From Candidatus Hydrogenedentota bacterium (GTDB lineage Bacteria; Hydrogenedentota; Hydrogenedentia; Hydrogenedentales; CAITNO01): a stretch of 32,706 nt of DNA. Where the stretch lies: the NCBI GenBank assembly GCA_903902895.1, contig CAIUWO010000541.1:1-32706 (forward strand), in the 5' to 3' direction. The notes beneath the pieces were generated by a model. It made no database searches. It saw nothing but the letters and a program-made list of their open reading frames with translations, and was not told the DNA's origin. The position numbers were made by a program, and so were the translations under genes. Positions 3,401 through 32,706 of the stretch are shown here, piece by piece (position 1 is the first letter of the stretch; every line of letters starts with the position of its first letter).

Positions 3401-5872
3401 ATGGGCCTGTATGCCAGAGTGATTACGGGGGGAGTGCTTGTCCTGGGCCTGGCCACTGTGGCGGCGACCGCGGCGAAGGGGCCTTTCACCAATTCCTGCG
3501 GGATGCGGATGCTGCCCATTCCGGCGGGTTCGTTCCTGATGGGCGAGACAGGACCGGTGCCCGAGGAACTGAGCGGTCCGGACTGGGGCGCATACGGCAA
3601 CCATGACGAGGTTCCGGTGCACAAAGTGGCGCTGAGCCGGTCTTTCCATATGGCTGAAACGGAAGTGACGGCGGAACAGTTTCGGCAGTTTCGGGCCGAT
3701 TATCAGGGACCGGAGCTCTTCGCGCCCTCTGCGGCCGGCATAAGCTGGACCGAGGCGGACGCTTTCTGTCATTGGCTCAGCGAGAAAGAAGGCAAGACCT
3801 ACCGCCTGCCCACCGAGGCGGAATGGGAGTATGCGTGCCGTGCCGGGACGATGGGGTTGTTTTGGTCGGGAGAGAAGACGCCCAAAGAAGACGCGAACCC
3901 CTTCGGGCTGAAAGGCATGCACTCGGGTGTCTCTGAATGGTGCCACGACTGGTACGGCCTCTACAGCTGGGAGGAGCAGACCGACCCGGTCGGCCGCGCG
4001 TCGGGTTTCACGCGCGTGGTGCGCGGGGGTGGGGTGGAGGTGCATCCTTTCGACAAGGACGACCTGCTCGGCAAGAGCGAGGGGCAAAAGTCCGAGGCGA
4101 CACAGGGGTTTCAAGACACCGCCTACGGGAACTTTCCGCCGTTCTACCGCCGTTCCGCCAACCGTGCCAGCCTGATGCCCAATTCCCCGCCTGCGGGAAA
4201 GGGGATGCCGTTGCAGCATTTCGTGGGGTTCCGTGTGGTTCAGGCAGCCCTGCCCGAAACGAAACCGCTGGCTGCGGAAGTGCCCTGGCCCATGCAGGGG
4301 ATAAAGCAGGAACAATGGGACGGCACGCAGGGGCCGGACCCGGCCAAGCCCTACTTTCATGTGCGGCCCATCCTTCCGATCCCGCCCGAGAACTGCCCCG
4401 ATGCGGACATCGCGGCAGTGGGCTTGAATCCGGGCGTCAAGGGGCACAACCACTCCGGGGCGATTGCCGTCTGCCCCAACGGCGACCTGTTGATGGTGTC
4501 GTTCAGTTCGGTCATGAAACAGTCCGAGGCGAGCAGCAACACGACGATGATGTGCACCCGCCTGCGGCGGGGTGCGGAGGCGTGGGACACGCCGGATGTC
4601 TTTGTGGATGTGGCCGATGCGAACGACCAGTCGGCGCTGCTGTGGAACGACAACGGGACGCTGTGGTTCTTCGGCGGCGGGCGCTACTTTGGGCCCGGTG
4701 AACAGGAACTGGGAAATGTGCCGTTCCGCTATTGCACCTCGACGGACAACGGCGCCACCTGGTCCGAATTGAAAGCGCCCGCGATTGACGGGCCGGTGCG
4801 CGGTTTTACCGCGCAGCCCATCAACAGCGCTTTCCGCGGCCCCGACGGCACGATATACTTCGGCATGGACGGTCCGGACGCGTCCTCATTGCTGTGGGCC
4901 AGCAGTGACGGGGGCAAAACATGGCGGGACACCTGGGGCATGACGCGGGCGCGCCACACCACCTTCGCGCTGCTCAAGGACAACCGCATACTGGCCATGG
5001 GCGGCAAGAACGCCGACATCGGGGGGTACACACCGAAATGCTATTCCTCCGACTGGGGCAAGACCTGGACAGAGGGCGAAAAGACGCCCTTTTCGGCGCT
5101 GGGCACCAACCAGCGGCCGACGCTTGTCCGGCTCAGGAGCGGACGTCTCTTCTTCGCCACGGACTGCCAGCATTTCAAGAACACACCGCCGGAAGGGCTT
5201 AAACTGCGCGGCGCCGTGGTGGCCTTGTCGGACGATGAAGGCGAAACCTGGCGCATAAAACCGCTTCCGCTGGCCACGCCCCACGAAAAGCACCGGGCCA
5301 AGACGGATGTATGGGAACCCAAGGACGGGCCGGACCACCGCTATCCGACGCTGGGCTATGCGGTGGCCACGCAGGCGTCGGACGGCATCATTCACCTGAT
5401 GAGTTCCATGAACCACCCGTCGCTGCATTTTGCGATGAACGAGGCGTGGATTCTGTCAGACGAGACGAAAGAAACCGTGACACCTGCGTCCGAAAGTGCC
5501 GCGGCACGGGCGGCGCATGAAGAACATTATCCGGACGGAACGCTTCGGATGACTTGGAGCAGTTGCATCGATGCTGAGGGGCGTTACCTGTTGGACGGAA
5601 CGGAAACGTGGTACTTTCCCGGCGGCGGAAAGCAGTACGAGGCCGTGTATGTTCGCGGTCGCAGGGTGGGTGAGGAAACGCTCTGGGACCAGAACGGGAA
5701 CAGGCGATGGTCCTGGACCCGGGATGCCGATGGGAAGGGCGTGTGGACGCAGTATTGGCCCGGGGGCGGCAGGCGAATCGAGTCGCATTGGTCCGGTTGC
5801 CGGGCGGAGGGTGCCATTACCCACTGGGATAGGGCGGGCAAAACGGTCTATTCCGGAACCGCGGCTTTCTGA
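3401..5872 (+). CDS. Secreted SUMF1-fold + BNR/sialidase-like propeller + YwqK/MORN-like repeat fusion
   Basis: 823 aa; the ATG at 3401 has GGAG 8 bp upstream and opens a signal peptide (residues 1-25). Residues about 28-282 are a SUMF1/formylglycine-generating-enzyme fold: IPAGSFLMGE, then RLPTEAEWEYACRAGT (135-150), VSEWCHDWYG and a final FVGFRVV. The region where the true enzyme has its two catalytic cysteines contains none, so it is probably not a sulfatase activator. Residues about 340-690 contain four Asp-box (BNR) motifs, STDNGATW (447), SSDGGKTW (501), SSDWGKTW (549) and SDDEGETW (610), typical of sialidase-fold propellers. Residues about 708-823 carry YPDGT, YFPGGGKQYE and YWPGGGRR units, as in YwqK/MORN-like repeats. 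Each module is familiar; this order in one secreted chain is unusual. It converges with the next gene with only 14 bp between. Confidence 0.82.
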   Translation: MGLYARVITGGVLVLGLATVAATAAKGPFTNSCGMRMLPIPAGSFLMGETGPVPEELSGPDWGAYGNHDEVPVHKVALSRSFHMAETEVTAEQFRQFRADYQGPELFAPSAAGISWTEADAFCHWLSEKEGKTYRLPTEAEWEYACRAGTMGLFWSGEKTPKEDANPFGLKGMHSGVSEWCHDWYGLYSWEEQTDPVGRASGFTRVVRGGGVEVHPFDKDDLLGKSEGQKSEATQGFQDTAYGNFPPFYRRSANRASLMPNSPPAGKGMPLQHFVGFRVVQAALPETKPLAAEVPWPMQGIKQEQWDGTQGPDPAKPYFHVRPILPIPPENCPDADIAAVGLNPGVKGHNHSGAIAVCPNGDLLMVSFSSVMKQSEASSNTTMMCTRLRRGAEAWDTPDVFVDVADANDQSALLWNDNGTLWFFGGGRYFGPGEQELGNVPFRYCTSTDNGATWSELKAPAIDGPVRGFTAQPINSAFRGPDGTIYFGMDGPDASSLLWASSDGGKTWRDTWGMTRARHTTFALLKDNRILAMGGKNADIGGYTPKCYSSDWGKTWTEGEKTPFSALGTNQRPTLVRLRSGRLFFATDCQHFKNTPPEGLKLRGAVVALSDDEGETWRIKPLPLATPHEKHRAKTDVWEPKDGPDHRYPTLGYAVATQASDGIIHLMSSMNHPSLHFAMNEAWILSDETKETVTPASESAAARAAHEEHYPDGTLRMTWSSCIDAEGRYLLDGTETWYFPGGGKQYEAVYVRGRRVGEETLWDQNGNRRWSWTRDADGKGVWTQYWPGGGRRIESHWSGCRAEGAITHWDRAGKTVYSGTAAF

Positions 5873-23255: not shown

Positions 23256-25241
23256 GTGAAGTGTTCAAAATGCACGCATGAAAACCCTTCGGGGCTGAGC
23301 CACTGCCAGAAATGCCAGTCGCCTCTGGCGCTTTCGTCAGACAACGAGGCGACACGGCTCGGCGGAGACGCCCAGACCGATTTCGAGTTTCGCCGGGGGC
23401 AGGTCGTTAATGGCCGGTTTACCGTGCTCGACCTGATTGGCCGCGGCGGCATGGGCCGCATTTACAAGGCCCATGACAACGTCCTGGGCGAGGACGTTGC
23501 GCTCAAGACGCTGCTGCCCCAGTTCCTGCGCGACAAGATGGTGGTGGAGCGCTTTTTCAACGAGGCGCGCATCGCCCGGAAACTGGCCCACCCCAACATC
23601 GTGCGCGTGCATGATATCGGCAGCGCGGGCAAGGGCATGTACATCTCCATGGAGTACGTGCAGGGCGATTCGCTGCGCGGCATGATTGAAAAACTGCCGC
23701 CCGGCAAGCGCATCCCCCTCGGCGAGGTGCTGCGCATTGTGGACGAACTGTGCGGTGCCCTGGAATACGCCCACCAGTACACCATCCACCGCGACATAAA
23801 GCCCGAGAACATCATGCTCGACAGCGGGCGGCGTGTGAAGCTGATGGACTTCGGCATCTCGAAGCTGATGGACAACACCCGCATGACCGGTGCGTCGGTG
23901 GTCATGGGCACCCCCTATTACATGTCGCCCGAGCAGTTGCGCAACAGCCACGAGGTGGACCAGCGCGCCGACATATACAGCATCGGCGTGGTGCTCTACG
24001 AGGTGCTCACGGGCAACATGCCGACGGGGGTGCCGCGGCCCGCCTCGCAGATGCTCAAGGAAATCCCCCCCGCCATGGACGAGATCGTGGCGCGCTGCGT
24101 TGATCCCGACCCCGAGAAACGCTATCAAAACGCGGCCGAGCTGCGTGGCGCGCTCAAGCCGATCATGCAAATTGTCGCCTCTGGAAAGAATGTAGACAAG
24201 ACCCTGGCCAGACACCGGAAAATGCGCAACGCCAAGCCGGTTCCCTGGCGGCGCATGGCGGGCGTGGCGATTGTTGCCGCCCTCGTTGCGGGCATGATCG
24301 CGGGAAGCACGGCCGCCTATCGGCGCTGGCAGGCAACCGCCACGGTGCTCCCGGCCGCGGCCGGCGCAGCGGGCGACCGCTTCGCAGAGCTTGAGCAGCT
24401 GGTGAACAGCGTCCGCCCGCGGGTCGAACCGCTGGCACGGGGCAGCCAGGACATGCGCGCCATGTTTGAGTCCGCCGATGCGCGCTGGGGTGAGGCTGTG
24501 GCGGCGCGCCAGGATGGTGGCGGAGTTGCGGTGGCGGCCGCCGAAGAGGCGCTGCAGCGTTTTCTGGCCATGGCCCTGGTGCGCGAGGGCATGACCTTTG
24601 TGCCGCCGGGTCCCGTCATGATGGACGGCGCGCAGCAGGCGGTTTCGGCCTTCCTGATAGACACCACAGAGGTTTCCATCGGGCAGTATGCCGAATTCTG
24701 CCGCAGCGTGGAGGGCGGATGGCGCATTCCCGAGGAGCTACGCGCCGCTATGGATGCCTACACGGAATATCCGGTCGCCTGGGTGTCATGGTTCGACGCC
24801 CAGGCCTACGCCCTCTTCCGGGGCAAGGCGTTGCCGAGCCGCGCACAGTGGGCGCGTGCCGGATACGGGGGCAACAATGCCTCCGACCAGTACCCTTGGG
24901 GTGCCGAATGGCAGGGAAACGCCTGCAATTGCCAGGGCCAGGCGGCTGTGGCGGAAAAATCATTCGACCGGGACCGGACCTGGTCGGGCTGTTTCGACAT
25001 GGCTGGAAACGTCTCCGAATGGACCGCGTCCTGCCCGGTCGCGGAAGCGGCGAACCGGGCGCCTGACTTTGGCGACGGCATCGAGGTGTGCGGGGGCAGT
25101 TTCACCACGGGAGCCAGCCCCCTCAGTTCCGTTCGCAATCTGCCCTATGAGACGCGCGCGGCCGACCTCGGTTTTCGCTGCATCATCGCGATCGGCACGA
25201 CACCCACCGACGTGCAGGCGGCGCTGGCGCGGCTTCGATAG
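23256..25241 (+). CDS. Membrane Ser/Thr protein kinase with zinc ribbon and extracytoplasmic SUMF1 domain
   Basis: 661 aa from a GTG. The start is supported by an immediate zinc ribbon, C3-x2-C6 and C17-x2-C20, and by GGAGA upstream. The kinase domain (about 55-305) is complete: GRGGMG (62-67), K84 in VALK, HRDIKPEN (178-185), DFG (198-200), GTPYYMSPE (218-226). A single helix (about 335-355) crosses the membrane, a spacer follows, and residues about 440-645 form a SUMF1 domain (FVPPGPVMMD, WVSWFDAQAYALFRGKALP, FDMAGNVSEW, VCGGSF, LGFRC). Its catalytic Cys pair is absent. Kinase-SUMF1 fusions are known, for example Chlamydia Pkn1. The layout suggests an external ligand-sensing domain controlling an internal Hanks-type kinase. 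It is transcribed away from the propeller gene. Confidence 0.92.
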   Translation: MKCSKCTHENPSGLSHCQKCQSPLALSSDNEATRLGGDAQTDFEFRRGQVVNGRFTVLDLIGRGGMGRIYKAHDNVLGEDVALKTLLPQFLRDKMVVERFFNEARIARKLAHPNIVRVHDIGSAGKGMYISMEYVQGDSLRGMIEKLPPGKRIPLGEVLRIVDELCGALEYAHQYTIHRDIKPENIMLDSGRRVKLMDFGISKLMDNTRMTGASVVMGTPYYMSPEQLRNSHEVDQRADIYSIGVVLYEVLTGNMPTGVPRPASQMLKEIPPAMDEIVARCVDPDPEKRYQNAAELRGALKPIMQIVASGKNVDKTLARHRKMRNAKPVPWRRMAGVAIVAALVAGMIAGSTAAYRRWQATATVLPAAAGAAGDRFAELEQLVNSVRPRVEPLARGSQDMRAMFESADARWGEAVAARQDGGGVAVAAAEEALQRFLAMALVREGMTFVPPGPVMMDGAQQAVSAFLIDTTEVSIGQYAEFCRSVEGGWRIPEELRAAMDAYTEYPVAWVSWFDAQAYALFRGKALPSRAQWARAGYGGNNASDQYPWGAEWQGNACNCQGQAAVAEKSFDRDRTWSGCFDMAGNVSEWTASCPVAEAANRAPDFGDGIEVCGGSFTTGASPLSSVRNLPYETRAADLGFRCIIAIGTTPTDVQAALARLR

Positions 25242-27106: not shown

Positions 27107-27148
27107 TCTTGACAACGGAACTAAGGTTTACTACAATACGTGTCAAGA
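27107..27148 (+). promoter_or_regulatory. Strong promoter of the pil operon inside an 8-bp inverted repeat
   Basis: TTGACA (27109-27114), exactly 17 bp, TACAAT (27132-27137): the -35 is perfect and the -10 matches five of six positions. TCTTGACA (27107-27114) and TGTCAAGA (27141-27148) are perfect inverted arms, one covering the -35 and the other the expected transcription start near 27144. That geometry suggests a dimeric repressor site. Confidence 0.75.
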
Positions 27149-27264
27149 GTTTATTCGACGAACAGGCTCAGTCGTTACACTTTTCGCGGAGTTAACAGAA
27201 ACAGGGTGCCGTAGCGGTGGCGGGGTTGAGCGCCTCACACGGTCCAGGGGTTAAGAACGCGTAT

Positions 27265-29469
27265 ATGGCGACAGTATTGGCAGGGTGGAAAAAACGGCTT
27301 GTCTTGGATATTGGCACGAGCGCGGTGCGCTTGTGCGAAATGTCCAAGAGTAAGACCGGTTACACTTTGACGCGATTCGTCCAGCGCGAATTCGACTCCG
27401 ACCCGTCTCTGGACGAGGAGAAGCGGAAGGCGCTGCGGAGGGACGCTGTCAAGAGTGTTCTCAAGCAGGTCCGGGCACCCATGCGCAAGGTGGTCTTCGG
27501 GGTTGCCGGCCAGTCTGTTTTCACCCGCAGCCGCACACTGCCCCCTGTTCCCGAATACAAAGTCACGCAGATTGTAAAGTACGAAATTCAACAGCAGATT
27601 CCTTTTGGCCTCGACCAGATAGCGATGGATTATCAAATCCTCAGCCGCAATGAACAGGGCGGATATGAGGTGATGATGGCCGCCATCAAAGTCGATGTCG
27701 TGGACAAGGCGCTCGAAATACTCAAACCCACCAAGCGTGGGGTGGCCTTTGTGGATGTCTGTCCGCTGGCCGCCTACAACTGGCTCAAGCACGTGGGCGA
27801 TTTCGGAACCCAGGGCGAATGCGTGGCCATGGTCGACATCGGCGCGACCACCACCGACATCGTCATAGAGCGTGCCGGCCAGTTTCGCTTTACCCGCCCC
27901 CTCAATGTGGGCGGCAATGACGTCACCAAGGCCATGGCCGCCGCCTTCAGCATCGATTTTTCCGCCGCGGAAAAACTCAAGCGCGAGCGCGGTTTTGCGC
28001 CGACGGGCGACCCGCAGAAGGACGGCAAGGGCGGCGAGGTGGTTGGCCAGGCGCTCCAGCGTCTTTCTTCCGAGATTTTGCGGTCCTTCTCCTACTTCCG
28101 GTCTCTGCCGGGCGGCGGCCAGGTCAACCGCGTGGTGCTTAGCGGTGGCGGGGCCCGCCTGCGCAATCTGGTGCCCTTCCTTCAGCGCACCCTTGGCATG
28201 GATGTCAGGCTGGTTCAGCCGCTCAAGGGGCTGACCGTTGCCGCAGGCGCGGAATCCGTGAAGCAGTGCCCCGAGCAGGCCTGTGTGATTCTTGGCATGG
28301 CATTGCGCACCTGCGTGTCCGTGCCGCTGGAAATCGACCTCATACCGCCGCGTGTCGTTGAGGCGGCGCGGCGCAAGGTGCAGGTGCTCTACTGGGGCGT
28401 GTCCATCACAGCGCTGGTGTTTTCCGTGCTGTCCGTCGTGCCTGCGGCGAGAAACGCCAACAAACAGGTCATAGACCGCATCGACCAGCTCAAGAAGGCC
28501 ATTCACGCCTACGACCCCGAGATGGTGCAGCGCATCCGGGTGGGAGCCGCACCGCCGGTATCTGGCCTCAATGACAAGTTGACCGGCTGGAAGAACCAGT
28601 TAACCAGGGTGGAGGACCAGGTCAAAACCCTGGACAAGGCGCGCCGTTTGCGTCGCTTCTGGCTTGATGAGATTGCCTTTGTAAGTGAGGCACGGCCGGC
28701 CACCAAGGGCATGTGGTTCAGTTCTGTGGAAACCTCCCTGTTCCCCGATGAAAAGGGCAATCAGCCCGCCGGTGCCCAACCGGGCGCGCCACCGCAGCGG
28801 GGCGGCGGTCTCGCCTCGCAGACGGGCGTGAAGCAGGGCGGTGTCAGCGCCGGATTCCCGGGAATTGAATCGAAACTGGCACCCGGGGGGGCGGCTTCGC
28901 GCTCTGGGCCGGCAGGCGGCGGTCTGGGCGGCGGCGGTCTGAGTGGTGGCGGTGGCCGTGGTGTGTCACGGCAGAATGATGAGCTGATATCGGGGAAGAT
29001 GCCCCTTCAAGACGGGATGATCATACACGGCTTTGCCGAGTCCGACGAGGCCGTTTCAGAGTATCTGGATGAACTGAACCGGGCTTCCGTGCAGTTGCCG
29101 AACGGCATGTTCCTGAGTGCCGAGAAAGTGGTGTTCAGCGAGGGCACCGTGCAGAAGGTTCCCTGGGAGACACTTTACAACGCTCCCGTGGATTCGGGCA
29201 TCGTGGGGGGCGGCCCCGGAAGCGGTGGTCGTGCGGGAAACACGAATTACCAGCAAGCGGGGGCGCCAAGCCTCTTCTCGTTTACGATTGAGGTGAAGTT
29301 CCGCCGCGACAAGGACCGGCCCTCGCCCAACAAGAACAAGAACACGGAGCAGGCGCCCGCGCCGGGCGCTGCGCCGCCGCCGCCGCCCCCGGCAATGCCC
29401 GCCGTGGCGCCGAAACCGGCTGATAATGCGAGCCAGAACAGCAGCGCCGCGGGGGGGAACCCGGCGTGA
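27265..29469 (+). CDS. PilM-PilN fusion, inner-membrane assembly protein of a type IV pilus or related system
   Basis: 734 aa from the ATG at 27265 (a GTG at 27217 is possible; neither has an ideal ribosome site). Residues 9-350 are PilM, an actin-like ATPase fold: LVLDIGTSAVRL (12-23), MVDIGATTTDIVI (189-201) and LSGGGARLRN (292-301) are the nucleotide-binding loops. Residues 355-362, LEIDLIPP, resemble the INLLP motif at the start of PilN, which docks into PilM. They are followed by a transmembrane helix (about 373-393), a helical stretch (398-465) and a PilN-like C-terminal domain (about 583-680). A Gly/Pro/Ala-rich insert (about 495-570) and a Pro-rich tail are added. PilM and PilN are normally separate chains. 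The stop codon overlaps the next start. Confidence 0.85.
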   Translation: MATVLAGWKKRLVLDIGTSAVRLCEMSKSKTGYTLTRFVQREFDSDPSLDEEKRKALRRDAVKSVLKQVRAPMRKVVFGVAGQSVFTRSRTLPPVPEYKVTQIVKYEIQQQIPFGLDQIAMDYQILSRNEQGGYEVMMAAIKVDVVDKALEILKPTKRGVAFVDVCPLAAYNWLKHVGDFGTQGECVAMVDIGATTTDIVIERAGQFRFTRPLNVGGNDVTKAMAAAFSIDFSAAEKLKRERGFAPTGDPQKDGKGGEVVGQALQRLSSEILRSFSYFRSLPGGGQVNRVVLSGGGARLRNLVPFLQRTLGMDVRLVQPLKGLTVAAGAESVKQCPEQACVILGMALRTCVSVPLEIDLIPPRVVEAARRKVQVLYWGVSITALVFSVLSVVPAARNANKQVIDRIDQLKKAIHAYDPEMVQRIRVGAAPPVSGLNDKLTGWKNQLTRVEDQVKTLDKARRLRRFWLDEIAFVSEARPATKGMWFSSVETSLFPDEKGNQPAGAQPGAPPQRGGGLASQTGVKQGGVSAGFPGIESKLAPGGAASRSGPAGGGLGGGGLSGGGGRGVSRQNDELISGKMPLQDGMIIHGFAESDEAVSEYLDELNRASVQLPNGMFLSAEKVVFSEGTVQKVPWETLYNAPVDSGIVGGGPGSGGRAGNTNYQQAGAPSLFSFTIEVKFRRDKDRPSPNKNKNTEQAPAPGAAPPPPPPAMPAVAPKPADNASQNSSAAGGNPA

Positions 29470-30437
29470 AGAACAAAGGACGCATCATAGGAATTGTCGT
29501 GCTGCTGGCCATCTTCAGCGCCTTGGGGGCCGGCTATTTCCAGTACATAAAGCCGCAGTTCGAACAGTACGCAGCGGACGAAAAGTTGCGCGCTTCCCTT
29601 GAAGCGACCTACACGGACCTGTCAGGGACTTTTCAGGGTTTCCAACCCGAACTGCTCATGACCGCGTGGCAGGAAAAGCTTCAGCCGTGGCGCGGAGCCC
29701 GGGAGGAGCGCGCCGGATACTTCAACTACGGCGACTGGTACGACCACGAAAAGCCGGCCAAGGACTCGGACCGCATGGTCAAGTTCTGGTACGGTGACAC
29801 CGCGAACAAGATGGTTCAGGACTTCTACGGCGAGCTGTACAAAAAATACGGCCGTTACGACACCTACCCCCAGGACTTCCGCAACGCGCTGGGCGTTGCC
29901 ACGGATCAGGAGTGGCAGGGCCGCGACGTGACCGACGCCGAGGTCATCCGCAATTTGGACAAGCTGGCCTACGGGCTGTCCGTGTGCCGCCTGCTGTTGA
30001 AATACAACGTGCCGCAGGTGACCCAGATACGCATGTGGCCCCCGCGCATCACCAACGAGTACGAGCAGATGCTGATCGGCCAGACTGTCGGCCTGCAGTT
30101 CACCGTGTCAACGAAAGACCTCGTGAAAATGCTCGATGACCTGCGCACGGGGGACCGCTATTTCTCGGTCGACGCGCTGAAAATAACCTATCCCTACATC
30201 GCGTACAATGTCGAGCCGCAATTGCAGGTTTCCATGCTGCTCAGTCAGGCGAACTACCGCAAGGCGTTTATAGAAAAGAGCGAGGGCGACAAGGGCGGTG
30301 CCGGCGGGGCTAAGCCCGGGGGCGCCGTTGCTTCGATTGTGCCGACGCGTCCCCCCGCGGCGCCGTTGGCTCCCGAACCCGGCGCGGTCGGAAAAGTTTG
30401 GAAATGGATCAAGAACAACTTGCTGTACATGCACTAA
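29466..30437 (+). CDS. PilO-like inner-membrane pilus assembly protein (by position and layout)
   Basis: 323 aa. The GTG start overlaps the upstream stop in GTGA, so translation is probably coupled. A single N-terminal helix (about 6-25) is followed by a helical stretch and an alpha/beta region ending in LQFTVSTKDLVKMLDDLRTGDRYFSVDALKI-type sequence (about 205-250), the pattern of the PilO/GspM-type ferredoxin-like domain. Residues about 265-305 are Gly/Pro/Ala-rich. It is longer than typical PilO (about 200 aa), with an unrecognised middle part (50-180) rich in Tyr, Trp and Asp. Identity as PilO rests on gene order pilMN-O-P-Q and topology, not on a diagnostic motif. It should sit in the inner membrane with the PilM-PilN protein. 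Confidence 0.6.
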   Translation: MKNKGRIIGIVVLLAIFSALGAGYFQYIKPQFEQYAADEKLRASLEATYTDLSGTFQGFQPELLMTAWQEKLQPWRGAREERAGYFNYGDWYDHEKPAKDSDRMVKFWYGDTANKMVQDFYGELYKKYGRYDTYPQDFRNALGVATDQEWQGRDVTDAEVIRNLDKLAYGLSVCRLLLKYNVPQVTQIRMWPPRITNEYEQMLIGQTVGLQFTVSTKDLVKMLDDLRTGDRYFSVDALKITYPYIAYNVEPQLQVSMLLSQANYRKAFIEKSEGDKGGAGGAKPGGAVASIVPTRPPAAPLAPEPGAVGKVWKWIKNNLLYMH

Positions 30438-30478: not shown

Positions 30479-31003
30479 TTGAGAGACAAGTTCATAAAGG
30501 CAGGCAACTGGATTTGGCACGGCAAGGAGCTGATCGTCCTATTGGTGATGGTCTGCATACTTGTTTACCGTGTCTACGGCGTTGTCAACCCCCCGCCGCC
30601 GCCCAAGTGGTCGGCGATGCCCCTGCCGATAACCGAACTGCCCACCGACCCGCAAGAGGTGCAGGACTTAAAGCTTCCCGGCCAGCCCACACTCCGTCCC
30701 TCCATGGACGTTCCCAACTCATACGCAATGCTGTATAACAGGAACCCGTTCTGGTATTATTCCGGCCAACAGAAGCAGAACACCAAGCAGGATGTCACCG
30801 CGGCGGACCTGAATATCAAGCTGATGGACATCCAGAACGCGGGCGGCCGCCTGCGGGCGAAGTTGCGCACAGAGAGCGCCACGGCCTGGTACTCGGAGAA
30901 TGATCAGTTCGAGAAATACGAACTTCAGAAGATAGATCCCGATAGCAATACTGTTGAAATATATTCGGAGCGCTATGCGCGGACCTTTACCTTGTCAAAA
31001 TAA
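30479..31003 (+). CDS. PilP/GspC-like single-helix protein of the secretin complex (tentative)
   Basis: 174 aa from a TTG start at 30479. The TTG is accepted because GAGAGG lies about 5 bp upstream and the next in-frame ATG (30548) would cut the membrane helix. One helix (about 18-36) precedes a Pro-rich linker, then LYNRNPFWYYSGQ and a beta-rich C-terminal domain (about 105-174) that ends with YELQKIDPDSNTVEIYSE and a FTL strand. Short helix, Pro-rich linker and a small beta domain are the layout of PilP and GspC, which link the inner-membrane complex to the secretin. The gene lies 41 bp after the PilO-like gene and 64 bp before the secretin-like gene. Assignment is by position and layout. 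Confidence 0.6.
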   Translation: MRDKFIKAGNWIWHGKELIVLLVMVCILVYRVYGVVNPPPPPKWSAMPLPITELPTDPQEVQDLKLPGQPTLRPSMDVPNSYAMLYNRNPFWYYSGQQKQNTKQDVTAADLNIKLMDIQNAGGRLRAKLRTESATAWYSENDQFEKYELQKIDPDSNTVEIYSERYARTFTLSK

Positions 31004-31067: not shown

Positions 31068-32706
31068 ATGAGTACGCGTGACATACGGAACATCATGCTG
31101 GGTTGTGTTGCTGCTATGTTGCTGGCAGCCGTGCCCGTGCTGGCGCAAACCGCGCCGGCAGACGGCGCGCCGTCCGCGGTGGTAGTCGGAACGCCCTCGG
31201 TCGTTCCACCGCCTGCCGAGTCGGGCGCTGTGGCGGCGCCACCCATTGAGGCGTCACCCGGAGGCGCCGCCTCCGTTGATGCCGCGGGGGTTTCCGAGGC
31301 GGAGCTGTATTTCCGCCGCGGCGTGGACCTCTACAAGCGCGACCTCTACCGGGAAGCCCTCACGGAGTTCAACCGTGCGCTGGCCCTGGACCCAAACCAC
31401 CAGGAGGCGCGCCGTTTCCAGGAGAAGGCCAGCACCCGCCTTCAGCAGGCGCTCGTAGGCAGCGAGGCCGCCGACGCGCCGGCTGCTTTCGAGGCCATCG
31501 ACCCGGAGACAATCACCAAGCAGAGCGAGACGGCCCAGTTGTCAGCCGATGAAGTGCGCCGCGAGCGGGTCAAAAAACTGCTGGTGGATGCCCAGCGCTA
31601 CATGGAGGCCGAGCGCTACAGCGTTGCCGTTGAAATATACAACAACGTTCTGCTGATGGACCCCAGCAATCCCGATGCCAAGGACGGACTGCACAAGGCG
31701 ACGATTGGCGCCCATGACGCCGACGGCGTGGAAAGCCTGAAGGACGTGCAGGAAGACAGGGCGCTGATTCGCAATTACATCAACAATTCCAAGCGTCTGC
31801 CCGAGGGTGCCGACGCGCGCGGCATCAAGCCGTTCCGTTTCTCCGTGCCCCAGATCGAGGAGGAATACAGCCAGACCAAGGAAAAATCCCTCATCGAGTC
31901 GACACTGGAGTCCCCGGTCGCCATTGAATTTGAGGACATTCACCTTAGCGAAATAGTGAATTTCATCTCGGACAGCTGGGACATCAATATCGTTATTGAC
32001 AACCGCGCCGTTGACCCGCCCAAAAAGGTGCAGCCGCAGCCGGCCGGTGGCGCCGCGCCCGGCGGCCCGCCCTTTGGAGGCCCCCCCGGAGCATTTCCCG
32101 GTCCCGGCGCCGCGCCGGGCGCAATGCCGCCGATGGGTGGCGGAATGCCGCCAATGGGCGGACAGCAGCGTCCGGCCGGCCCCAACTATGGGGGAATGGC
32201 CAACATGCCCGGTGGTCCGAATGCACAGCGTCCGATGGGCAATGCCGGCGGCGGCGATGCCGTCTATGGCAGCAAGTCCAGCGGCATTGTGCCCTATATC
32301 AATCTCAAGAACGTCACCTTGGCCGAGGGGTTGCAGGCGCTGCTGCGTCCCCTTGGTCTTGACTATTCGATCCAGCCCGGATTCGTCTGGATCAGCAAGC
32401 CCGAAATCATCCGTCGGGAATCCTTTGAGAAGCTGGAAACCCGTTACTACGAACTGCGCAATGCCGGTTCTGAAACACTGTTCAAGCTTGTGCTCCGCAA
32501 CCGCTTTGGCGGCGCCGGCGGACAGCGCGGCGGCATGGGCGGCATGGGTGGCGGCATGGGCGGCATGAGCGGCGGCATGGGCGGCATGAGCGGCGGCATG
32601 GGCGGCATGGGCGGCATGAGCGGCGGCATGGGCGGCATGAGCGGCGGCATGGGCGGCGGCATGGGCGGCGGCATGGGCGGCATGAGCGGCGGCATGGGCG
32701 GCATGA
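31068..32706 (+). CDS. Secretin (PilQ-like) N-terminal region with TPRs, STN-type domain and Gly-Met repeat, 3' partial
   Basis: 546 codons in the window; the frame runs off the edge. The ATG at 31068 is preferred over the ATG at 31062 because GGGAGG is 6 bp from the former and touches the latter. Residues 1-27 are a signal peptide ending in LAQ. TPR-like helices occur at about 75-125 and 165-210 (AELYFRRGVDLYKRDLYREA and ERYSVAVEIYNNVLLMDPSN). Residues about 280-445 are a secretin N0/STN-type domain (VAIEFEDIHLSEIVNFIS, then NLKNVTLAEGLQALLRPLGL) split by a Pro/Gly/Met-rich insert (about 318-400). RYYELRNAG begins the next repeat, then residues 488-546 consist only of Gly, Met and Ser. The secretin core is outside the window, so the PilQ call rests on gene order and these domains. 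Confidence 0.75.
   Translation, partial: MSTRDIRNIMLGCVAAMLLAAVPVLAQTAPADGAPSAVVVGTPSVVPPPAESGAVAAPPIEASPGGAASVDAAGVSEAELYFRRGVDLYKRDLYREALTEFNRALALDPNHQEARRFQEKASTRLQQALVGSEAADAPAAFEAIDPETITKQSETAQLSADEVRRERVKKLLVDAQRYMEAERYSVAVEIYNNVLLMDPSNPDAKDGLHKATIGAHDADGVESLKDVQEDRALIRNYINNSKRLPEGADARGIKPFRFSVPQIEEEYSQTKEKSLIESTLESPVAIEFEDIHLSEIVNFISDSWDINIVIDNRAVDPPKKVQPQPAGGAAPGGPPFGGPPGAFPGPGAAPGAMPPMGGGMPPMGGQQRPAGPNYGGMANMPGGPNAQRPMGNAGGGDAVYGSKSSGIVPYINLKNVTLAEGLQALLRPLGLDYSIQPGFVWISKPEIIRRESFEKLETRYYELRNAGSETLFKLVLRNRFGGAGGQRGGMGGMGGGMGGMSGGMGGMSGGMGGMGGMSGGMGGMSGGMGGGMGGGMGGMSGGMGGM
32529..32706 (+). repeat. In-frame tandem repeat coding for Gly-Gly-Met units
   Basis: At least 178 bp of near-identical units, mostly GGCGGCATGGGC and GGCGGCATGAGC, all in frame. 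The 59 encoded residues include 17 Met; the rest are Gly and a few Ser. The array runs off the window edge, so its full length is unknown. Confidence 0.95.

Follow-up and report, generated by a model that had tools for sequence, protein, structure and literature searches.

A widespread PilM-PilN fusion protein with a conserved docking peptide at its junction, predicted from a Candidatus Hydrogenedentota genome

Introduction

In standard pili, PilM docks onto the N-terminal INLLP-like peptide of a separately encoded PilN. We report here that a single gene of Candidatus Hydrogenedentota, at 27265-29469, is by homology of both its halves a natural PilM-PilN fusion. The gene, which we call pilMN, lies in a window of 32,706 nucleotides (contig CAIUWO010000541.1, assembly GCA_903902895.1); the gene, its parts, the promoter candidate and the genes downstream are on the plus strand. 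At the level of sequence, it is identified by the fusion itself and both homologies, together with conservation of the peptide and of linker length, the operon order and its separation from canonical PilM. We consider it probable that the product serves a type IV filament machine as a fused PilMN platform subunit in which PilM still contacts the peptide. To our knowledge, PilM-PilN fusion is usually quoted only for GspL of the type II secretion system (T2SS). The fusion is also the rule in a large pilus-type family, which has retained the docking peptide along with intact nucleotide loops.

Results

The sequence-only reading of this DNA had placed a PilM part and a PilN part in one frame of 734 amino acids. 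Translation of 27265-29469 indeed gives 734 residues from an ATG without an internal stop; an in-frame GTG at 27217 provides an alternative start (750 residues). A candidate sigma-70-like promoter, TTGACA-17-TACAAT (27109-27137; consensus scan, 11 of 12 positions), lies 5' of the gene, though the scan gave 2 matches in the region where 1.4 were expected in shuffles. Could a sequencing or assembly error have deleted a stop codon between the two parts? The source genome is fragmented (1056 contigs, 6.7% contamination), which leaves room for such an error. However, the same fusion and linker occur in independent assemblies of dozens of species. The fused protein has a strong match in 54 of 60 related genomes (its own included), nearly all with one long frame through the junction, and its nearest homolog, from an independent assembly, is 82% identical over residues 1-734. 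Fused homologs also occur in other phyla. These independent homologs exclude sequencing error as the source of the fusion for practical purposes; the earlier reading had named a lost stop codon as what would refute it, and its single frame is confirmed.

The first half is a PilM actin-fold domain (residues 1-348, 27265-28308), predicted by AlphaFold (AF2) with a pLDDT of about 90. PilM_2 (PF11104) matches residues 14-349 at 3.5e-42 (145 bits, cut-off 27), and TIGR01175 (pilM) matches the same residues with 152.8 bits against a cut-off of 133. Three actin-fold nucleotide loops sit where the earlier reading had put them: the phosphate-1 loop, defined by alignment, at residues 12-23 (LVLDIGTSAVRL, 27298-27333) and, defined by sequence and alignment, the phosphate-2 loop at residues 189-201 (MVDIGATTTDIVI, 27829-27867) and the adenosine loop at residues 292-301 (LSGGGARLRN, 28138-28167). 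R22 of the phosphate-1 loop (27328-27330) occupies the position of K26 of Thermus PilM, a residue that contacts ATP (PMC6325625). This gives one lead on ATP binding: the position is Arg in 28/28 aligned Hydrogenedentota fused proteins, while separate PilM proteins, like the majority of fused ones from other phyla, keep Lys.

A linker of eight residues (349-356, 28309-28332) follows the PilM domain and leads into the peptide IDLIPP (residues 357-362, 28333-28350; family consensus INLIPP), which aligns with the PilN residues of PDB 5EOU. The motif had been reported as LEIDLIPP at 355-362, and it is found there, with its core at I357-P362. In Hydrogenedentota the linker varies in sequence and is fixed in length: exactly eight residues separate the conserved PilM end, LG[ML]ALR, from the peptide in 29/29 copies. 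In other lineages, 11 of the 13 fused proteins show the same spacing, and two have 9 and 10 residues. Among 28 Hydrogenedentota fused proteins, mean column entropy is 0.36 bits in the motif versus 1.63 in the linker; L359, P361 and P362 are invariant in all 28, and position 360 is I or V. Conservation is much stronger in the peptide than in the linker, and we argue from this that the peptide is still used. Under uniform residue use, a rough probability of <1e-4 applies to a chance [ILV][ND]L[ILV]P that begins within about 10 positions. In alignment, the peptide falls in register with INLLP in 42 PilN proteins that are encoded separately. Along with the fixed distance from PilM and a canonical PilM/PilN pair elsewhere in the genome (see below), this register upholds the claim that the junction motif is the PilN docking peptide. 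Some fused relatives have degenerate peptides (LSFAP in L105, FNLIF in L116, INILE in L113, INLEP in the Akkermansia type), so strict docking may not be universal.

We also considered whether the halves might act separately, through a second translation start inside the frame or proteolytic cleavage close to the junction. In-frame ATG (345), TTG (347) and GTG (351, 353) codons do lie 5' of the peptide. However, none has a Shine-Dalgarno-like purine run in the 18 bases before it, half of the homologs have L in place of M345, and separation would not demand a linker of fixed length. We regard this as very unlikely.

The second half resembles PilN in its layout and its profile. Behind the peptide come a transmembrane helix (about residues 373-395, 28381-28449), seen in the sequence and as a helix in the AF2 model and aligned with the PilN membrane helix, and a PilN-like coiled-coil region (about residues 396-460, 28450-28644). 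A PilN-like periplasmic fold follows in two parts (residues 467-491, 28663-28737, and 584-682, 29014-29310) on either side of a Gly-rich insertion (residues 497-579, 28753-29001) that is predicted to be disordered (pLDDT below 50). The coiled coil and both parts of the fold were assigned from the AF2 model and profile comparison, the second part also from family comparison. With its C-terminal part alone, no PilN family exceeded its cut-off (PF05137 gave E = 0.19, at the expected strand), and a sequence search of solved structures for the PilN-like part gave nothing useful. A profile of 28 C-terminal parts, by comparison with a profile of 42 separate PilN proteins, gave 97-99% probability and an E of about 2e-11 (local mode), with the alignment in register from the docking peptide onward. 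By profile and model, the chain thus has the cytoplasmic INLLP-type peptide, membrane helix, coiled coil and ferredoxin-like domain of PilN. Hence, 27265-29469 is, on homology, a natural fusion of PilM and PilN.

Gly/Pro-rich low complexity recurs in three neighbouring products: the insertion in the PilN domain (28753-29001), the tail of the PilO-like product (30285-30392) and the secretin (32527-32706), where a GGMGGM repeat has a 21-base unit in 7.8 copies.

Does the peptide fold back into the PilM groove? The earlier reading had proposed structure prediction of the full chain as a check, and we built an AlphaFold model from a 28-sequence alignment. It has a confident PilM domain, an extended and confident junction (351-360, pLDDT 88), a continuous helix at 362-416 and, on both sides of the disordered Gly-rich insertion, PilN-type strands (483-491 and 584-682). 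In Foldseek comparisons, the model fitted PilN-bound PilM with TM-scores of 0.80-0.81 for 5EOU (rmsd 4.1-4.3) and 0.84 for 2YCH, and the architectural model 3JC8 with 0.82, versus 0.69-0.72 (rmsd 5.6-5.9) for PilN-free Pseudomonas aeruginosa PilM. When the PilM domain was modelled without the peptide, the bound-state fit fell to 0.76 (5EOU), 0.80 (2YCH) and 0.76 (3JC8), the free-state fit hardly moved (0.68-0.71), the 5EOU alignment shrank from 360 to 348 columns, and AlphaFold confidence dropped around 71-90, 111-130, 161-170, 241-250 and 291-300. By TM-score the peptide-free model, too, lies nearer to bound than to free PilM; the differences in structure are modest in size, and AlphaFold may know this conformation from 5EOU and 2YCH. 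These model comparisons fit a docked peptide, indirectly: the full-chain model comes closer to PilM with PilN bound than to PilM without it, and 355-362 may accordingly lie in the groove.

Docking in cis, into the PilM groove of the peptide's own chain, seems likely to us from the model. The peptide might instead dock in trans, into the PilM domain of a neighbour, so that the cytoplasmic ring would be a domain-swapped chain. PilM and PilN have been modelled as rings in piliated machines (3JC8; PMC8389850), and a fixed short linker fits a swap as well as it fits cis docking. Against this, a single-chain model with no neighbour yields a confident junction (pLDDT 88) and a bound-like PilM, a monomer prediction being a limited test. 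We judge trans docking to be the less likely arrangement and favour the cis contact.

Three genes follow pilMN. A PilO / GspM / Amuc_1100-like gene (29466-30437, 323 residues) overlaps the pilMN stop; a one-TM protein of about 174 residues (30479-31003, start uncertain) lies in the PilP / GspC position; and a PilQ-like, Amuc_1098-like secretin (31068-32706, start uncertain) is cut by the contig end, leaving its TPR and N-terminal part. The first two are conserved in place. Members of the PilO-like family match Amuc_1100_fam in 6/28 cases, weakly (best 9.3e-5), and GspM_XpsM in 5/28 (best 0.0054); those of other phyla match more strongly (67 and 54 bits). Nothing useful came from a sequence search of solved structures for the PilO-like part. 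The PilP-position protein matched no family, and its assignment is positional only; a single match of its family to a flagellin hook IN motif chain (1.1e-4), with no stretch passing alone, was not trusted. The secretin in the window matches TPR, STN and Amuc_1098 models, and its full-length orthologs clearly carry the Secretin domain. In Hydrogenedentota, pilMN is followed by a ~320-residue gene, a ~175-residue gene and a large TPR-secretin gene, an order that most fused genes of other phyla share.

The genes upstream of pilMN are unrelated. Elsewhere in the window, 23256-25241 encodes a predicted Ser/Thr protein kinase joined in one chain to a domain like the formylglycine-generating enzyme (FGE-sulfatase), perhaps with a zinc ribbon at the N-terminus, and 3401-5872 is an 823-residue frame joining an FGE-sulfatase domain and a BNR-repeat (sialidase-like) domain. 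Two fused loci of other phyla have PilC-type or PilB-PilC-type genes upstream, GspF/PilC being confirmed at L096. In the source genome, motor genes are encoded elsewhere: ten PilT-family ATPases exceed the cut-off, and none could be tied to the pilMN locus. Ten seems many for one genome, and the 6.7% contamination may add to the number.

Three further PilM-type proteins are encoded in the source genome. Contig C207 carries a separate PilM (422 residues) followed by a separate PilN starting MIRINLLP, the pair that serves as internal control for the junction. On contigs C46 (L003) and C317 (L005), a gspK-like gene is followed by one for a fused protein resembling GspL, and the clusters also contain ATPase, platform and secretin genes. 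These two proteins have weak T2SSL and PilN matches, junctions reading ISLLPE and FDLLQ, and degenerate nucleotide loops. One of them keeps ISLLPE eight residues past its PilM-like end and is intermediate between GspL and PilMN. The source genome thus holds a canonical pair and two secretion-type fusions in addition to the pilMN fusion of the window.

Perhaps the pilMN product is itself the GspL of a T2SS and not a pilus platform protein? GspL shares this architecture, and publications on GspL/PulL regard it as PilM and PilN joined by nature (PMC6325625, PMC10191384). Some neighbouring products give weak GspM matches, and GspD scores of the orthologous secretins are a little above their PilQ scores. 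However, T2SSL (PF05134) gives no match at E 0.01, while the C46 and C317 proteins match it weakly. The pilMN product retains all three nucleotide loops, which have degenerated in those two proteins, and no GspG-K genes lie beside pilMN. We consider the GspL assignment improbable and retain that of a pilus-type platform subunit.

How widespread is the fusion? NCBIfam NF045709 (Amuc_1101_fam) covers residues 9-490 on profile positions 5-473, unbroken across the junction. The score of 260 bits is below the equivalog cut-off of 650; by profile score, the fused protein is a relative and not an equivalog member of the Amuc_1101 family. All 68 Hydrogenedentota genomes match the model at some level and none exceeds the cut-off. 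A match at 1e-60 or better occurs in 57/68, with several others split or missing at contig ends. The search across Hydrogenedentota and relatives that the sequence-only reading had suggested thus found the fusion to be widespread, with further copies in other phyla. Outside Hydrogenedentota, 223 genomes yielded sparse fused copies, whose peptides include SVNLIP, EISLLP, EVNLLPP and QINLLP. In a second phylum (that of genome G201), 116 of 145 genomes (about 80%) match at 1e-60 or better and 11 exceed the equivalog cut-off; there, too, PilO-like, PilP-position and secretin genes usually come next. We infer this phylum to be Verrucomicrobiota from the fit of its over-cut-off genomes to Akkermansia. 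Verrucomicrobiota-type proteins read GLALR-8-INLLPP, and the Akkermansia-type group INLEP or IDLEP; a few loci of this type with a wrong-strand frame were left out. Viral contigs contained no relatives of the fused protein, and in a viral structure library only generic actin/Hsp70 folds matched. We conclude that the fusion is a widespread, already catalogued family (Amuc_1101 and relatives) and no peculiarity of the source genome. One paper calls Amuc_1101 a predicted FtsA (PMC5332112); our search of the open-licence literature found no paper describing Amuc_1101-type proteins as PilM-PilN fusions, and we place Amuc_1101 as such.

In a PilM-domain tree, a 100/99 branch divides separate PilM domains from the fused domains of Hydrogenedentota, Verrucomicrobiota-type genomes and other phyla, the exception being the fused L113. 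The tree is unrooted, so it gives no direction to fusion versus fission. The first tree joined long branches, and those rows were omitted from the second. L113 (INILE) and L116 (FNLIF), both fused, group with separate PilM in the first tree; by their position, L113 is probably a separate fusion event and L116 another. Many independent fusions were rejected as an origin of the main family, since the fused/separate label needs just 2-3 changes on the tree. Fused and canonical PilM are, by this phylogeny, two old groups, and several genomes hold both types.

Discussion

We propose that the fused chain would act as an inner-membrane platform subunit of a type IV filament machine, with its N-terminal actin-fold domain in the cytoplasm. 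The INLIPP peptide, eight residues past the PilM end, would turn back and enter a PilM groove, either that of its own chain or possibly that of a ring neighbour, and would keep PilM at the membrane in the shape that it has with PilN bound. Beyond the peptide, the chain would cross the membrane, its PilN-like periplasmic domain pairing with the PilO-like product of the next gene, and the PilP-position protein would link this pair to the secretin. For docking there is indirect structural support; membrane topology and pairing with PilO we infer.

What might the fusion change? The sequence-only reading had suggested that it tethers the docking peptide and fixes a 1:1 stoichiometry, and a covalent 1:1 ratio follows trivially from fusion. 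It had gone on to suggest that the usual cycle of PilM release and the ATP response are altered. We find this second claim unsupported by our results. In GspL, too, the PilM part cannot be released. In Thermus, PilM and PilN co-purify even as separate proteins, and PilF is still bound and stimulated by PilN together with PilM(K26A), which is deficient in ATP binding (PMC6325625).

Since the peptide is kept despite the covalent tether, we argue that the contact itself, and not just tethering, is needed. We offer as a speculation that a broad class of filament machines, built of fused PilMN, a PilO-like protein, a PilP-position protein and an Amuc_1098-type secretin, runs with PilM permanently tethered and docked. 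That class would span Hydrogenedentota, Verrucomicrobiota-type genomes and other phyla. If so, PilM-PilN dissociation would not be part of its extension-retraction cycle, and PilM nucleotide would act only while PilM is docked.

Among known systems, canonical type IVa pili provide homologs of both halves, and the junction peptide corresponds to the PilN N-terminus (I-N-L-L-P). There, two genes are used and PilM is a separate soluble protein that docks a separate PilN, whereas here the PilM part is joined to the PilN part. GspL / EpsL / PulL has an actin-fold cytoplasmic domain, a single membrane helix and a PilN-like periplasmic domain in one chain, as does the fused protein, which differs in having no T2SSL match, in its intact nucleotide loops and in having no gspG-K genes beside it; as judged by eye, the peptide has no more than a remote counterpart in E. 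coli GspL (YDMLHG). BfpC of type IVb pili may be likened by description, its N-terminal part resembling the cytoplasmic domains of PilM and GspL (PMC4471445). Amuc_1101 of Akkermansia muciniphila (NF045709, "PilM-like pilus complex protein") likewise has PilM, junction peptide and a membrane/coiled-coil part in one chain, and its family shares the operon order with Amuc_1100- and Amuc_1098-like genes. The over-cut-off members that we read have the same 8-residue spacing before INLEP/IDLEP, where IDLIPP stands here. Amuc_1101 is about 616 residues long, versus 734 here with the Gly-rich insertion and a Pro-rich tail. Finally, 5EOU, an engineered Pseudomonas PilM:PilN1-12 chimera, also has a short linker from the PilM C-terminus to the PilN peptide, with 9 residues between the PilM LR and INLLP versus 8 in the fused protein, and aligns with residues 12-361 of the fused protein, through the junction. 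5EOU is engineered and truncated, without a membrane or periplasmic part, whereas the protein described here is natural and a full chain. Fused PilMN proteins would thus be natural counterparts of 5EOU and good material for the structure of a complete platform subunit with PilM docked.
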